From an uncultured Flavobacteriaceae bacterium (GTDB lineage: Bacteria > Bacteroidota > Bacteroidia > Flavobacteriales > Flavobacteriaceae), in NCBI GenBank assembly GCA_947502975.1, contig CANNBV010000003.1, forward strand, positions 372,001 to 436,000: a DNA stretch of 64,000 nt, given 5' to 3'. A program made the position numbers and the translations under genes. A model generated the notes under the pieces. That model made no database searches and had not been told where the DNA came from. It saw only the letters and a program-made list of their open reading frames with translations. Below are positions 3,176-43,861 of this stretch, piece by piece (position 1 is the stretch's first letter; each line of letters starts with the position of its first letter).

Positions 3176-4060
3176 TTAGTCTACTAACTTCCATGAGCGC
3201 ACCCAATCATATTTAGTTGTTCTATCTTCAAAAGAACCAGTCATTCCTCCATCAGCAGGCACGGGGTTCCAATTATAAGTTTCGACAACTAATCTTAGAT
3301 ACATAGGCAAGTCAAAATCTGCTGCTGGAGTTACTTTAGTATGAAATTTTCCATCCAAAAAGAAAAGTACTTCATCTTTGCTTTTCCACCAAACACCAAA
3401 CACATGATAATCATCATACACTTTCCCACCTAATTCTGTCTTTGCCCCGGCAATACCTTTAACCACATCACAACCATCAGGGATATTCCTACTATGCGTA
3501 TTAGAATTCATAGTATGATCAAATTTTTGAACAAACTCTTCTGTTCCTGTAATTTGGCCTATACTTTCTTGAATGTCTAATTCAGTGGTTCTTTTATCGC
3601 AGCCAGAAGCATCATCACGATCATTTATTAACCAAAATGTAGAAGACATAAATGTTTTATTGGCTTTCATACGGCATTCATAATAACCATAGGTCATACT
3701 TTTCCTTGAACCAGCATAACCACCTCCATGAGTAAATGTCTTTCCTTGTTTAATGATAGGGTTAGGCATTTTAGTTGTTGTAATTTGAAGATTACCATCA
3801 GCCACAGTAACATTATTTGCTAAAAATAGTCCTGGCGCTCTACCAATCCATCCTTGTCCAGAAATTTGCCATTTTTTAGTATCAACTTTATCACCTTCAA
3901 ACTCATCCGACATTTTTTTGATAGGTTTCCATTTACTATTAGTTGGCCTAGGATCTTCACCTTCCAAGAAAAAAGGTCCAGATATACTGCTTTCCTGCGC
4001 ACAAGACAAAGTCATGGATAATAAGAAAAGTACTAAGAATATTGATTTGAAAAGTTTCAT
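3176..4060 (-). CDS. GH16 endo-hydrolase lipoprotein (agarase/porphyranase-like)
   Basis: Catalytic motif ELDIQE, SGQGWIGRAPGLFLANNVTVADGNL, YGYYECRMKA; lipobox LSCAQ. Confidence 0.85.
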   Translation of the reverse strand: MKLFKSIFLVLFLLSMTLSCAQESSISGPFFLEGEDPRPTNSKWKPIKKMSDEFEGDKVDTKKWQISGQGWIGRAPGLFLANNVTVADGNLQITTTKMPNPIIKQGKTFTHGGGYAGSRKSMTYGYYECRMKANKTFMSSTFWLINDRDDASGCDKRTTELDIQESIGQITGTEEFVQKFDHTMNSNTHSRNIPDGCDVVKGIAGAKTELGGKVYDDYHVFGVWWKSKDEVLFFLDGKFHTKVTPAADFDLPMYLRLVVETYNWNPVPADGGMTGSFEDRTTKYDWVRSWKLVD

Positions 4061-35447: not shown

Positions 35448-35473
35448 GGGTAAATATACCCAGTGTTGGGTAT
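35448..35473. promoter_or_regulatory. NarL-like operator cluster upstream of the protease/two-component operon
   Basis: GGGTA-AATA-TACCCAGTGTTGGGTA; core ATACCCA-GTGT-TGGGTAT (35456-35473) is a perfect palindrome; TTTG at 35500-35503. Confidence 0.65.
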
Positions 35474-35531
35474 TTTTTCACATTCACCAAGTCTTCATAT
35501 TTGTAACATCAATTAATTAACCATTACCCTC

Positions 35532-35867
35532 ATGAAAAAATTAGTCTCTCCTATTACCATGTTTTTCTTTGGTATTATCACCTTTGCTGTGATTATGATT
35601 ATTACTCATAAAAAGGAATTAGATTTTCAGGATACCTATTGTTGGTTTTGCAGAGTACTAATAGCCCTAACTTCAGCATCAATATGTATTTCTATTCCTG
35701 GAATGCTCAAACTAGATTATAATACAAAAGGAGATGGGATTAAAACATTTACTGACGCCGATAATAATCCATTAAAAATGTCTCTTTTAGAAAAGGAACC
35801 TACAATTAGTACTTCTGGCGCTATTGCTGTATTTGTTTTGGTGTGTTTGTTTAATCCTTTGGTTTAA
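35532..35867 (+). CDS. Small multi-TM membrane protein, first gene of the protease/two-component operon
   Basis: MFFFGIITFAVIMIITHKK...LIALTSASICISIPGMLKLDY...TISTSGAIAVFVLVCLFNPLV. Confidence 0.7.
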   Translation: MKKLVSPITMFFFGIITFAVIMIITHKKELDFQDTYCWFCRVLIALTSASICISIPGMLKLDYNTKGDGIKTFTDADNNPLKMSLLEKEPTISTSGAIAVFVLVCLFNPLV

Positions 35868-35873
35868 CAAGTT

Positions 35874-37397
35874 ATGACTATTGAGGAAAAAGCTAATAAA
35901 TCATTGGATTTTTTTGCACCAGTTTTTATGCAGCAAAACCTTAACTGTGATTTTATGGCTGTTTTAAATGAAAATAAAGAGGCAGTATTCTTAATTGCTG
36001 TCTATGATAAAAAAAAAGAATTAGATAAAATAGATGAATATCTAATAAGTATAGGCTTAGAAAATGAGGACAAAATATATTATTTAGATCTTAATGAAAA
36101 CTACAATAATACCTCATATTTATATGATTATATATCTTCCAAGGATAATGACAAAGTACAAATAAGAATTATATTCGAAGAATTTTATAATGATTTACCA
36201 AAGAATAAAAAAACCTTAAAAGCCAACCCTTTTCAATTATATGATATAAGAAAAGGGGGGCATGACATTGGCAAAATATCTGATTGTGATAACCGCGGGA
36301 CACTTGGAGCAGTTCTTACTGATGTAAATGACGAGGCATATATAATTACTTGCTATCATTGTGTTGAAACAAAAATAAACGGTAAAGTGAATTCACCTAC
36401 AAACATGACATCTGATGACAATTGCTCAAAAAAAAATATAATAGGAAGTCTATATTGGTACAAATATGAAAGCGTTAATAGTGAATATGATATTGCCTTG
36501 ATAAAAGTTAATGATAAAAAAAGAGTTGATAGTGGAGTAATTAAATTTGATTTAGCAGATAATATTGGGGATAAACCTATTTTGGGTGATGATATAATGT
36601 TTTTTGGTACTGGTAGTGTACAGATACAGAAAGGTAAAGTAATCAATTGCAACAGTTATAAACGAAGAAATAAAAACTGTAACCATGTCTTAAATAAGTG
36701 TTATATGTCATTAATAAATTCAAAAGAAGGAGATTCAGGCTCTCTGGTAGCAAAAGTTCCTAAAACTAATGAGTTACCAATACCTGTAGGTTTACTCCAC
36801 TCTAAATCAGGACCTTTTTCATTTTTTCAAGATTTGGAAATATTAAAGACTTCTATAAACGACGTTATAGATGGTAACAATGTTATTTTTAATTTTAAAC
36901 AATTTAACTTAAATAAATTAAATATTATGGCTAAAAAAAAGTTTCCTACAGCTCGATTAAGATATGATTTTAAACTAAATAAATACCAACCGGTTTTTTA
37001 TGGGCATATTTTTGGAACAACATTTACAATTGCTGCCAAACTCAATATGATTAAAAAAGATGGTAATACTTATATTAGAGGGTACTTTGTTAGTAAGAAT
37101 ATGGGAGGATTGATTAAATTTTCATTAAGTTCTATAGGTAGTGATGTAAATACAGATGGGCAGAAGTATCAATTAAATGTCAAGATGAATGCCTTTACTA
37201 ATCATGATACAAATATTGGGGAATCTGTAATTAATCTTGGTAAAGATTTTGACCCTGCAAAAAATCACTTTATTAATATAAATATTGCAGATGAAGATAT
37301 AATTAATTTAATACCAAAAAAGCATATTTTTGTTTGTGATAAGAATGAGATTAACGATGATCGCTCATGTGATATCACACCAGTTACTGGTCCTTAA
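35874..37397 (+). CDS. Trypsin-like (S1-fold) serine protease, predicted cytosolic, with uncharacterised N- and C-terminal domains
   Basis: GTLGAVLTDVNDEAYIITCYHCVE (His), SEYDIALIKV (Asp), EGDSGSLVAKV...VGLLHS (Ser); no signal peptide or TM. Confidence 0.75.
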   Translation: MTIEEKANKSLDFFAPVFMQQNLNCDFMAVLNENKEAVFLIAVYDKKKELDKIDEYLISIGLENEDKIYYLDLNENYNNTSYLYDYISSKDNDKVQIRIIFEEFYNDLPKNKKTLKANPFQLYDIRKGGHDIGKISDCDNRGTLGAVLTDVNDEAYIITCYHCVETKINGKVNSPTNMTSDDNCSKKNIIGSLYWYKYESVNSEYDIALIKVNDKKRVDSGVIKFDLADNIGDKPILGDDIMFFGTGSVQIQKGKVINCNSYKRRNKNCNHVLNKCYMSLINSKEGDSGSLVAKVPKTNELPIPVGLLHSKSGPFSFFQDLEILKTSINDVIDGNNVIFNFKQFNLNKLNIMAKKKFPTARLRYDFKLNKYQPVFYGHIFGTTFTIAAKLNMIKKDGNTYIRGYFVSKNMGGLIKFSLSSIGSDVNTDGQKYQLNVKMNAFTNHDTNIGESVINLGKDFDPAKNHFININIADEDIINLIPKKHIFVCDKNEINDDRSCDITPVTGP

Positions 37398-37409
37398 GAA
37401 TAAAACCAT

Positions 37410-39293
37410 ATGATAAAATTAAAATATGTTATAGTTTTATCTCTTTGCTTTTTGGTGCAAATCTCGGCACAAAATAACACTACCATAAAAGCTTTATTAA
37501 ATACTCTAAGGCAATATGAATTAGAGGAATTCAACCCTTCTCTTAACTTGTTTAACCCAAAAGATTCTTTGGGAATAAAGTTGAGAGAAGCTTTTATTTG
37601 GAAGTACAACTATCTAGCCTTTGGAAATTTAGAAAAAAGGAACTTTAAGCCAGAAAAGGATAATTATACTTTAGAAAATGGTCTCCTAAATATTTATTAT
37701 GGTGATTATTTGATATCGAAGGGAACTGAGGAGTCTATTCCTTATAATTACTATCAAAAGTCTCAAGAAATTGCAGACGCAATTAACTCACCAGTTTTGC
37801 TTTGTGAAGCTCTGAAACGAATGACAAGCATCATAAATAAAAATGAAAAAAACCTAGATGACTTAAAGAATCTATTAAAAAAATATAAAGATGCAGCTTA
37901 TGATGATTTTGAAAAAGATTTATCAACTTTGGCTAAAATTAGAGCCTATTCGTACATTGAACAAAAGCCATATATTCAGGAATTAAACCAGGGGTTGTCT
38001 AGTGCTCTTGCTAATGAAAATAAAACTATTATTGCTTCATATTATAAGCTCTTGGGGGTTAAGCACGATGTATATGCTAGATATTTAGAAACCAACAATA
38101 TTTCTAAAAACAATTATTCAAAATCTTTAAATTATTACGATAAGTCTTTAAATATTTGGCAATCCTACAACTACGCTTTTTCTAAAAAAAAACAAATAGG
38201 AATAATTATTAACAAGGGAATAGTTCATTATTTCAGCAACAATCAAAAAGAAGCACAAAAGTATTTAAATAAAGCAAAGGAATCGATTGATTCTACAGAT
38301 TATAATAATAATATCTTATATTATCAATGGTATTCTTTAAGCTTAGCAAAAGAGAAAAAATACAAATCTGCATACAAACATAAATTTGATGAAAACCAAT
38401 TACGGGAAGACAGATATCAAGAAAAATCTGAAATCACAGTCGCAGAAATTAATACTAAATATGAAACTGAAAAAAAAGAAAAACAATTATTAATCGAACA
38501 GCAACAAAAAAAACAAAATAAAAATATAGCTATTGGACTTGGAATAAGTCTATTATTTGGTAGTATTATAGCTCTTCTACTATTTAAAAACACCCGCAAA
38601 AAACAACGTTTAGCAGAACAAGCCAAAGCATTAGAAAGTCAAAAACTAGCCACTGTTCTGAAGGAACAAGAATTGGTTAGTATAGATGCAATGATAGAGG
38701 GCCAAGAAAAAGAACGCCAACGTATTGCCAATGATTTACATGATGACTTAGGCGGATTGATGGCTACAGTAAAATTACATTTTAATGCACTGAAGGAAAA
38801 ACAAACGCCTGACTTGTTTGATAAAACCACTACCCTTTTAGATGAAGCGTATCACAAAATACGTTCTATTGCACACACTAAAAACTCTGGTGTTATAGCC
38901 AAACAAGGACTACTTATCGCTTTACAAAATATGGCCGATAAAATCTCAACATCTAATAAAATTAGTGTTGATGTTATAGATCATGGTTTAGAAAATAGAC
39001 TTGAAAATAGTTTAGAACTTACTATTTTTAGAATCGTTCAAGAATTGATTACAAACGTAATTAAACATGCCGAAGCTACTGAAGCAGTTATTCATCTTAC
39101 CAATCATGACGATATACTTAACATAATGATTGAAGATAATGGCAAAGGTTTCAATCCAAATCAAATTACCACAAAAAACAAAGGTATGGGGCTCAGCAGT
39201 ATTGATAAACGCGTAGAGCATCTTAATGGTAAAATGACCATAGAGTCAGAACAAGGATCAGGCACAACAATAATAATAGATATTCCCACATGA
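37410..39293 (+). CDS. TPR-containing sensor histidine kinase (HisKA_3/NarX-LiaS type)
   Basis: Signal peptide, helical-repeat region, TM (NIAIGLGISLLFGSIIALLLF), EKERQRIANDLHDDLGGLMATVKLHF, NVIKHAEAT, MIEDNGKGF, GMGLSSIDKRVE. Confidence 0.93.
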   Translation: MIKLKYVIVLSLCFLVQISAQNNTTIKALLNTLRQYELEEFNPSLNLFNPKDSLGIKLREAFIWKYNYLAFGNLEKRNFKPEKDNYTLENGLLNIYYGDYLISKGTEESIPYNYYQKSQEIADAINSPVLLCEALKRMTSIINKNEKNLDDLKNLLKKYKDAAYDDFEKDLSTLAKIRAYSYIEQKPYIQELNQGLSSALANENKTIIASYYKLLGVKHDVYARYLETNNISKNNYSKSLNYYDKSLNIWQSYNYAFSKKKQIGIIINKGIVHYFSNNQKEAQKYLNKAKESIDSTDYNNNILYYQWYSLSLAKEKKYKSAYKHKFDENQLREDRYQEKSEITVAEINTKYETEKKEKQLLIEQQQKKQNKNIAIGLGISLLFGSIIALLLFKNTRKKQRLAEQAKALESQKLATVLKEQELVSIDAMIEGQEKERQRIANDLHDDLGGLMATVKLHFNALKEKQTPDLFDKTTTLLDEAYHKIRSIAHTKNSGVIAKQGLLIALQNMADKISTSNKISVDVIDHGLENRLENSLELTIFRIVQELITNVIKHAEATEAVIHLTNHDDILNIMIEDNGKGFNPNQITTKNKGMGLSSIDKRVEHLNGKMTIESEQGSGTTIIIDIPT

Positions 39294-39913
39294 TACGATT
39301 AGCTATTGCAGAAGATCATCAATCACTTATTGATGGTATAAAACTACTCTTAGATTATGAAGACGGGATCTCTATTGTTGGTACTGCAAATGATGGCGAA
39401 GCACTATTGGAAATTGTGGAGCGTAAACAACCCAATGTCATTCTTATGGATATAAGAATGCCCAAATTAAATGGCATTGAAGCCACAAAAGAAATTAAGA
39501 AAAAGTTTCCTCATACAAAAGTACTAGCTTTTACAATGTTTGATCAAGTTGAAGCTATTCAACAAATGTTAGATGCTGGTGCATCTGGCTATATATTAAA
39601 AAACTCTGCATTAAAAGAAGTCCATGAAGCCATTTTAGCAGTTTATAAAGGGGAAACATACTTCGACGCTAACATAAATACCAACATATTACATTCAAAA
39701 AGTTCTAATAAATCTAAAGGGCTTTTAACTAAGCGGCAAATAGAAATTCTAGAGCTGATTGGTCAAGGAAAAACCTCTAGAGAAATTGCAGATATATTGT
39801 TTATAGGGATTCACACTGTAGATACGCACAGAAAGAATATGGCTAGAATACTTGGTTTACAAGGTAAAGGAGAGTTAATGCGTTATGCCTTAGAAAAGAA
39901 ATATAAGTTTTAA
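39290..39913 (+). CDS. NarL/FixJ-family response regulator
   Basis: ATGA overlap with kinase; LAIAEDHQSLIDGIKLLL, VILMDIRMPKLNGIEAT, LTKRQIEILELIGQGKTSREIADILFIGIHTVDTHRKN. Confidence 0.96.
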   Translation: MIRLAIAEDHQSLIDGIKLLLDYEDGISIVGTANDGEALLEIVERKQPNVILMDIRMPKLNGIEATKEIKKKFPHTKVLAFTMFDQVEAIQQMLDAGASGYILKNSALKEVHEAILAVYKGETYFDANINTNILHSKSSNKSKGLLTKRQIEILELIGQGKTSREIADILFIGIHTVDTHRKNMARILGLQGKGELMRYALEKKYKF

Positions 39914-39916
39914 TAT

Positions 39917-39934
39917 TTACCCAATATCGGGTAT
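39917..39934. promoter_or_regulatory. NarL-like operator upstream of the LuxR-HTH gene
   Basis: TTACCCA-ATAT-CGGGTAT followed by TTACCC; TTTG at 39961-39964, identical spacing to the 35456-35473 site. Confidence 0.6.
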
Positions 39935-39986
39935 TACCCTTTTGTGTTTTTTCATTGAATTTTGTTATTTAAACATACCCAAATCA

Positions 39987-40379
39987 ATGAACGCCCACAA
40001 AGAAATCATAACAACTATAAACAACCTAAAGTGTAATAACAAAACACTTTCGAAAGATGGCATAATAAAAGTTTTAAAAGCAACAAAATCTATAACGAAT
40101 CATAAAGATAAAATAGATGCAATAATTCATTTTTTTATTACATCTGAAAAAGTTAAAATCTATAAAAACAAACCACTTACAAGAAGAGAAATACAAGTTT
40201 TAATGTTAATTGGAAATGGAGAAAGTTCATTATGCATTGCAAATACCTTAAATTTAAGTGTCCATACAATTGAAACCCATAGAAAAAATATATGTAAAAA
40301 ATTACAATTAAAAGGTAATGGCAAACTGCTTCAATTTGCTATTCTTTATAATTTAAAAACATGCTCTTTAAAAACATGA
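39987..40379 (+). CDS. Small LuxR-type HTH protein without receiver domain
   Basis: LTRREIQVLMLIGNGESSLCIANTLNLSVHTIETHRKNICKKLQLKGNGKLLQFA; ATG 39987 preferred to track TTG 39942. Confidence 0.85.
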   Translation: MNAHKEIITTINNLKCNNKTLSKDGIIKVLKATKSITNHKDKIDAIIHFFITSEKVKIYKNKPLTRREIQVLMLIGNGESSLCIANTLNLSVHTIETHRKNICKKLQLKGNGKLLQFAILYNLKTCSLKT

Positions 40380-40495: not shown

Positions 40496-40582
40496 ATGAA
40501 GATATTACTAATAATTAGCTTACTCATTGTTGTAAACTTAATACTATTAGCTTTTAGTGTTAATAAAAAAACAGAACCTTAA
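40496..40582 (+). CDS. Putative 28-aa single-pass membrane peptide
   Basis: MKILLIISLLIVVNLILLAFSVNKKTEP*; too short for the track; stop codon lies in a strong terminator. Confidence 0.5.
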   Translation: MKILLIISLLIVVNLILLAFSVNKKTEP

Positions 40583-40599
40583 TTAAGGTTCTGTTTTTT
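40565..40599. terminator. Bidirectional terminator
   Basis: AAAAAACAGAACCTTAATTAAGGTTCTGTTTTTT. Confidence 0.9.
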
Positions 40600-42841: not shown

Positions 42842-43861
42842 ATGAAAGCTTTAAAGTACATTTTTTTTCTTCTGCTTATTACCATAATTGGATTGGCAAT
42901 TTATATAGCAGTGCAACCAAACTCTTTTGAAGTGACACGAACTAAAACCTTGAATGCTCCTGCTTCTGTGGTATATAACAATGTAATTGATTATAAAAAC
43001 TGGGAATCTTGGTCATCTTGGGCTGAGGCAGATCCTGATATGGTAATTACACTTCCAGAAAAAACCGCTGGTGTAGGAAGTTCTTACCAATGGGAAGATA
43101 AGGATGGTATTGGTACTATGAAAACCATAAAGGCCATTCCTAGCACATCTATAAATCAAGAAATGCAATTTGCTGATTTCCCGGCTTCTGACATTACTTG
43201 GAACTTTACACCGAACGCAGATGGTACTACTGAAGCTATTTGGACGATTTCTGGTAAAGATTTGCCATTTGGCTTTAAAGCCTTTGCAACTTTTATGGGA
43301 GGTATGGAAAAACAAATTGGTCCACATTACGAACGCAGTTTAGAAAAATTAGATAGTGTTTTGGTGGCAAGTATGAAAGCATACAACATTACTGTAAATG
43401 GAGAGACAGAACATAGCGGTGGTTTTTATATATACAACACTGTATCTTGTAAAATTCCAGATATGCCAAAACATATTCAACAAATGATGCCTAAGTTAGG
43501 CGATTATGCTATGAAGAATAATATACAAATGGCTGGCGCACCCTTTAACTATTACCATAAATGGGATGAAGCTAATAACACCGTAATGTTTTCGTGTTGT
43601 ATCCCAACTACGACTAAAATTAACTCTAATGATCCTGAGATTCTAACAGGACAATTAAAACCATTTAAAGCTTTAAAAACAACGTTAAAAGGCAACTACG
43701 ATAATTTAAAAGAAGCTTGGGAAACTACCATGGCGCATATTGAAAAAAATGGATTGGTTACTGATGAAAACGGACCTGCATTAGAAGCATATGTGAACGA
43801 CCCCATGCAACATGCAAACCCAGCTGATTGGTTAACTGAAATCTATATTGCTCTAAAATAA
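42842..43861 (+). CDS. SRPBCC domain fused to GyrI-like effector-binding domain, membrane-anchored
   Basis: N-terminal TM; VTRTKTLNAPASVVYNNVIDYKNWESWSSWAE; C-terminal GyrI-like region ending YVNDPMQHANPADWLTEIYIAL. Confidence 0.82.
   Translation: MKALKYIFFLLLITIIGLAIYIAVQPNSFEVTRTKTLNAPASVVYNNVIDYKNWESWSSWAEADPDMVITLPEKTAGVGSSYQWEDKDGIGTMKTIKAIPSTSINQEMQFADFPASDITWNFTPNADGTTEAIWTISGKDLPFGFKAFATFMGGMEKQIGPHYERSLEKLDSVLVASMKAYNITVNGETEHSGGFYIYNTVSCKIPDMPKHIQQMMPKLGDYAMKNNIQMAGAPFNYYHKWDEANNTVMFSCCIPTTTKINSNDPEILTGQLKPFKALKTTLKGNYDNLKEAWETTMAHIEKNGLVTDENGPALEAYVNDPMQHANPADWLTEIYIALK

Follow-up and report, generated by a model that had tools for sequence, protein, structure and literature searches.

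Two palindromes in the genome of a marine flavobacterium, one upstream of a two-component operon and one just past it, are probably operators of the NarL-type response regulator (RR) that is encoded between them. Acting from a fixed spacing to the promoter, this RR would activate its own operon (autoregulation), an orphan LuxR gene and the operons that follow two further copies of the palindrome, S3 and S4.

The locus and its two palindromes

The window, i.e. the whole stretch of DNA that was analysed, covers 64 kb (G000:C3:372001-436000) of a 4.55-Mb flavobacterial genome. The features on which the analysis is built are:

35448..35461, + strand: extra half-site overlapping site 1, GGGTAAATATACCC; not kept in relatives
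35456..35473, + strand: candidate operator S1, ATACCCA-GTGT-TGGGTAT; inverted repeat of 7-4-7 form (7-2-7 if read from TACCC)
35496..35503, + strand: -7 box CATATTTG, 22 nt past S1, with TTTG at 35500-35503
35525..35529, + strand: TACCC half-site just 5' of the first start codon; not conserved
35532..35867, + strand: hydrophobic protein of 111 aa, encoded by the gene that opens the operon; without Pfam match
35874..37397, + strand: 507-aa trypsin-like protease (PF00089)
37410..39293, + strand: sensor kinase (HisKA_3/HATPase) with a signal-peptide-like start and one apparent transmembrane helix
39290..39913, + strand: NarL/LuxR-type RR (Response_reg + GerE), proposed binder of both operators
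39917..39934, + strand: candidate operator S2, TTACCCA-ATAT-CGGGTAT, 3 nt past the regulator gene
39929-39939: extra half-site at site 2, GGGTATTACCC
39957..39964, + strand: -7 box GAATTTTG, 22 nt past S2, with TTTG at 39961-39964
39976..39980, + strand: TACCC half-site 5' of the orphan LuxR start codon; not conserved
39987..40379, + strand: orphan LuxR-type (GerE) protein of 130 aa that lacks a receiver domain; put forward as a target and as a secondary regulator
40566..40599, + strand: strong intrinsic-terminator-like hairpin of 15 pairs, past the orphan LuxR gene

S1 lies 5' of the membrane protein/protease/kinase/regulator operon. Both palindromes, first pointed out in an earlier note on this DNA, were recovered at their coordinates, and the TTTG that the note had placed 27 nt past each of them starts exactly there (35500 and 39961). 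The description of S1 as a perfect palindrome holds for its 7-nt arms, but the central GTGT is not self-complementary; the arms of S2 are imperfect. The kinase sequence, with its signal-peptide-like start and single hydrophobic stretch, suggests a periplasmic sensing part. The RR matches PF00072 (E 2.5e-28) and PF00196 (E 7.4e-14), i.e. the receiver and C-terminal LuxR/GerE helix-turn-helix of the NarL/FixJ family, and the structure of NarL matches it over residues 5-195. It is not NarL in the strict sense of the nitrate regulator, as it scores 102 bits against a cut-off of 250 for the NCBIfam NarL equivalog; its best NCBIfam equivalog is MctR (187 of 300 bits).

The pattern WTACCCA-N4-YGGGTAW matched twice in the 64-kb window, at S1 and S2, and never in 100 dinucleotide shuffles of it. 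Whole genomes were then scanned by pattern. The earlier note had called for such a scan and held that many unrelated genome-wide copies would speak against its reading; TACCCA-N4-YGGGTA occurs at only three exact places in the 4.55 Mb, two of them being S1 and S2. Given this rarity and the empty shuffles, S1 and S2 are not chance occurrences. The third exact copy, S3 (C3:290543), is intergenic and lies 98 nt 5' of a three-gene operon without Pfam matches. S4 (C2:405289), a one-mismatch copy, is likewise intergenic, 55 nt 5' of a papain-like peptidase gene, and all other one-mismatch places in the genome lie inside or overlap predicted genes.

Spacing to the promoter and conservation in relatives

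At all four sites, S1-S4, a -7-like box starts exactly 22 nt past the 18-bp palindrome (CATATTTG, GAATTTTG, TAATATTA and TATTATTG, respectively). The boxes of S1 and S2 match the flavobacterial sigma-A promoter sequence TAnnTTTG (PMC9723704) at five of its six fixed positions and deviate at the first base, while those of S3 and S4 depart further from it. Unlike in the usual sigma-A promoters, the first base of the box is often C or G at the operon promoters, and an operator sits just upstream of the -33 region. In Flavobacterium psychrophilum, the sigma-A box occupies -12 to -5 (PMC9723704), which would place the palindrome at -52 to -35, with its centre at -43.5. This agrees with the position near -43 that had been suggested beforehand, and comparison across relatives gives independent support to a NarL-like operator fixed there. 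With start sites predicted in this way, the arrangement is class-II-like, i.e. an activator site centred at about -41 to -45 at a fixed spacing to the core promoter. For comparison, the 7-2-7 site from which E. coli NarL activates ogt lies at -44.5 and abuts the -35 element (PMC7419079).

Conservation was assessed in 26 loci: that of the window, its orthologs in seven genomes (G001, G002, G006, G008, G030, G013 and G023), a second copy in G006 and 17 loci from named species (L124-L140). The RR orthologs are 84-89% identical to that of the window in G001, G002, G006, G008 and G030, 71% in G013, 63% in G023, 61% for the second copy in G006 and 53-82% in the named loci, the nearest named relatives with the RR being Psychroserpens, Lacinutrix and Winogradskyella. 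The 111-aa hydrophobic protein is 65-68% identical in G002 and G030. We defined a module as the palindrome core followed at +22 by a box with at least four of the six fixed bases. Such a module lies upstream of the operon in 21 of the 26 loci and within 250 nt past the RR stop codon in 16. The core TACC-N8-GGTA was found 44 times against 1.85 expected from shuffles, and a TAnnTTTG box with at least five of the six fixed bases stands exactly at +22 in 28 of the 44 cores, compared to 0.56 on average, and never more than 4, at each of the 59 other offsets. Since the species are related, counts across these loci are not fully independent of one another.

Over the 26 loci, the information content of the 22-nt spacer is near zero. 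The layout is conserved across many genera while the sequence between operator and box drifts, and the module is kept although the cargo genes differ. The operator consensus over these loci is ATACCCAnTAtTGGGTAT, written ATACC(C/T)anTAtTGGGTAT, with A-rich and T-rich flanks. The pattern fits selection on a DNA site at a fixed spacing and not shared descent of the intergenic region.

The extra half-sites fared differently. They are present in the window much as first described (one TACCC starts at 35525, one base off the 35524 given before), but the design is not conserved in this respect: of 37 module sites in the orthologous loci, only 4 carry any, and four of the six occurrences are the window's own. 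Six occurrences against 1.6 expected, with a maximum of 8 in 500 shuffles, is a weak signal, and conserved flanking half-sites were rejected.

Binding protein and direction of control

Exact palindromes and RR co-occur. Among 301 genomes of the family, with RR orthologs called at E <= 1e-50, the palindrome is present in 30 of the 63 genomes with an ortholog and in 32 of the 238 without (Fisher p = 2.9e-8), and a reversed-pattern control gave p = 0.15. About half of the RR-bearing genomes are without an exact palindrome, probably because arm columns 5-7 vary. When the gap of the palindrome-and-box pattern was varied from 8 to 38 in 400 genomes, 42 matches fell at the spacing of the window and 27 over all 30 other gaps (about 0.9 each). 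Modules number 8.1 per 100 kb in orthologous RR loci, 0.5 in paralogous and 0.1 in distant ones. This genome alone holds 33 matches to the window RR. The module is almost never seen in 20 paralogous NarL-type RR loci. A free scan of these loci, open to every palindrome placed at +22 from a -7 box, returned essentially nothing, and a rule covering NarL-type RR operons at large was rejected on that ground.

The exactly spaced module was, however, found in 14 genomes of the 301-genome sample with an RR ortholog and in 14 without. The operator is therefore wider than the RR, some of the genomes without an ortholog having LuxR-type genes next to it, and exclusive ownership by the RR was rejected. 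The operator must apparently serve other LuxR-type proteins too, and could serve them here. PAS_3-GerE genes adjoin the palindrome in G248, G263 and G165, and other LuxR-type genes do so in G012 and G032. One-component regulators of the PAS_3-GerE type stand beside the same palindrome (L278, L281, L282, L096 and L093) in genomes with and without the RR. In two genomes of one genus without an RR ortholog, an exact palindrome with a +22 box (L107:4084 and L283:3097) lies 5' of a gene homologous to the one at 42842-43861 in the window. In several species, a related palindrome without +22 box was also seen between a patatin-like gene and a gene for a long secreted protein (L095, L102, L104 and L106, at about 4010-4050).

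These observations bear on who binds. Modules in genomes without an RR ortholog, the LuxR-type genes that adjoin them, and the orphan LuxR gene of G001, which has its own ATCCCCA-N4-TGGGGAT site and +22 box, are what would be expected if the main binder of the operators were some other LuxR-type protein (the orphan at 39987-40379, or a one-component PAS-LuxR regulator encoded elsewhere in the genome) and the RR were at most a co-user. We consider this unlikely at the window locus: the palindromes persist in G001, G002 and G006, where the orphan is not in the slot after the RR gene, and in G006, G013 and G023, where it is undetected, and the sites concentrate at RR loci and co-occur with the RR. 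A requirement for the orphan was rejected for the same persistence. It is also conceivable, at rather low probability, that the RR binds as a repressor and competes for the -33 region with RNA polymerase; the site abuts that region, where a bound protein could block the polymerase, and autorepression is common in bacteria. The position at about -43.5 matches, however, that of NarL-activated promoters, the spacing to the -7 box is kept more strictly than repression would need, and the -7 boxes of the operon promoters are off-consensus, as expected of activator-dependent promoters.

Two further readings dispense with a bound activator. S1 shows a stem of 7 bp, three of them G-C, with a T run behind it, and was picked up by a terminator scan, and S2 stands only 3 nt past a stop codon, as intrinsic terminators or other RNA hairpins might. 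The same scan missed S2, and folding gave modest z-scores in the window (-1.9 and -1.4). Among 37 module sites, pairs are lost at arm columns 5 and 6 (7 and 19 mismatches, respectively) with no compensating change, which speaks for a site acting at the DNA level, and a terminator would not stay at exactly 22 nt from a -7 box, 52-60 nt ahead of start codons. The uncompensated mismatches and the fixed promoter spacing led us to reject an intrinsic terminator, and we regard RNA hairpins in general as very improbable. Chance palindromes or a dispersed repeat element deserve almost no credence. Several one-mismatch genomic copies do sit in coding sequence, and such short sequences arise by chance, but the shuffles, the rarity in the genome and a spacing kept while the spacer diverged all stand against this reading, which the core count in the orthologous loci already contradicts.

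We thus favour activation by the RR, which we infer from the position of the palindrome near -43.5 and from -7 boxes that stray from consensus at the operon promoter. The sensor kinase would phosphorylate the RR, a dimer of which would bind with its centre at about -43.5, abutting the -33 region, and recruit sigma-A RNA polymerase in a class-II-like manner. Through S1, the operon would thereby be under positive autoregulation, and through S2, the orphan LuxR gene would be induced. Activation would extend to at least two unlinked operons, that of S4 with the papain-like peptidase and that of S3, of unknown function. The earlier proposal that the RR activates both promoters is largely borne out, comparison backing a NarL-like operator near -43 that is tied to the RR; the operator is not exclusive to the RR, and binding and activation themselves are predicted.

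Variants, cargo and relation to known operators

Two variant palindromes were encountered. ATACCTA-N4-TAGGTAT belongs to a paralogous RR subfamily (about 42% identical). In three genomes (G000, G008 and G029) it stands next to that subfamily's operon, in the divergent intergenic region, with a +22 box in both divergent directions in G000 and G008. Its positions are G000:C4:220176-220193 (L110:4677), L092:5786 and L108:8397, the two-way boxes being in L110 and L092. ATCCCCA-N4-TGGGGAT occurs in G001 at four sites clustered near the RR, one of them preceding the orphan LuxR gene, and a full TAnnTTTG stands at +22 in all four. The same combination at 22 nt was noted at L055:9667 and 13696, L057:5642, L127:11573, L211:1501 and L212:1501. 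The two variants look like separate channels.

Peptidases are frequent among the targets predicted in relatives; targets and cargo there include trypsin-like proteases, a caspase-like/subtilase fusion, a subtilase, a matrixin-like metalloprotease and a tyrosinase. At the position of the protease gene (35874-37397 in the window; L053, L125, L126 and L132), the gene is swapped, being trypsin-like, papain-like or unknown, and the flanking genes are constant. The second RR copy of G006 (L060:8853-14001) is followed by two caspase-domain genes and one TIR-domain gene. A known anti-phage defence system was rejected for the window operon, whose proteins had no PADLOC match except a weak helix-turn-helix match of the RR; some cargo of relatives matches PADLOC caspase, subtilase and TIR models.

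The sites resemble the 7-2-7 operators of E. coli NarL/NarP (TACYYMT-N2-AKRGGTA, as at ogt and yeaR) in their inverted TACCC heptamers 2 bp apart (PMC7419079; PMC4549865). As at ogt, a NarL-family regulator gene goes with a predicted activation site (-43.5 here, -44.5 at ogt) that abuts the -35 region (PMC7419079). TACCCA half-sites are present at 7-2-7 spacing, but the terminal T of the heptamer is absent (site 1 has G and A instead), relatives vary at column 7 and a TA centre is favoured. An engineered NarL site of high affinity is TACCCCTAAAGGGGTA (PMC4549865). In contrast to the E. coli system, a single strictly spaced site stands here beside a Bacteroidota TAnnTTTG promoter, and nothing in the sequence ties the kinase or the targets to nitrate. 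The RR shares its domain order with VraR, DesR and NarL (5hev, 4gvp, 4ldz and 1a04), a likeness that sequence comparison picks up along almost the whole protein, although it is only distantly similar to them and its best NCBIfam equivalogs fall far below cut-off. Our search of the open-access literature found no earlier description of this operator, nor an operator for any LuxR/NarL-type regulator of marine Bacteroidota.

A broader reading, which we put forward tentatively and hold to be somewhat doubtful, is that ATACCCA-N4-TGGGTAT, 22 nt and TAnnTTTG form a family-wide flavobacterial code. It would be read by two-component, orphan and PAS-sensing LuxR-type regulators, with arm changes (ATACCTA, ATCCCCA) making separate channels, and would switch on interchangeable proteases, caspases and TIR-domain proteins.

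Marine Bacteroidota have many LuxR/NarL-type regulators, and an operator sequence together with an exact promoter spacing rule would let their regulons be read from genome sequence. The rule described here ties a signalling system to a group of peptidases, some of them caspase-like, and suggests that two distant phyla employ the NarL half-site TACCC at core promoters that differ considerably.
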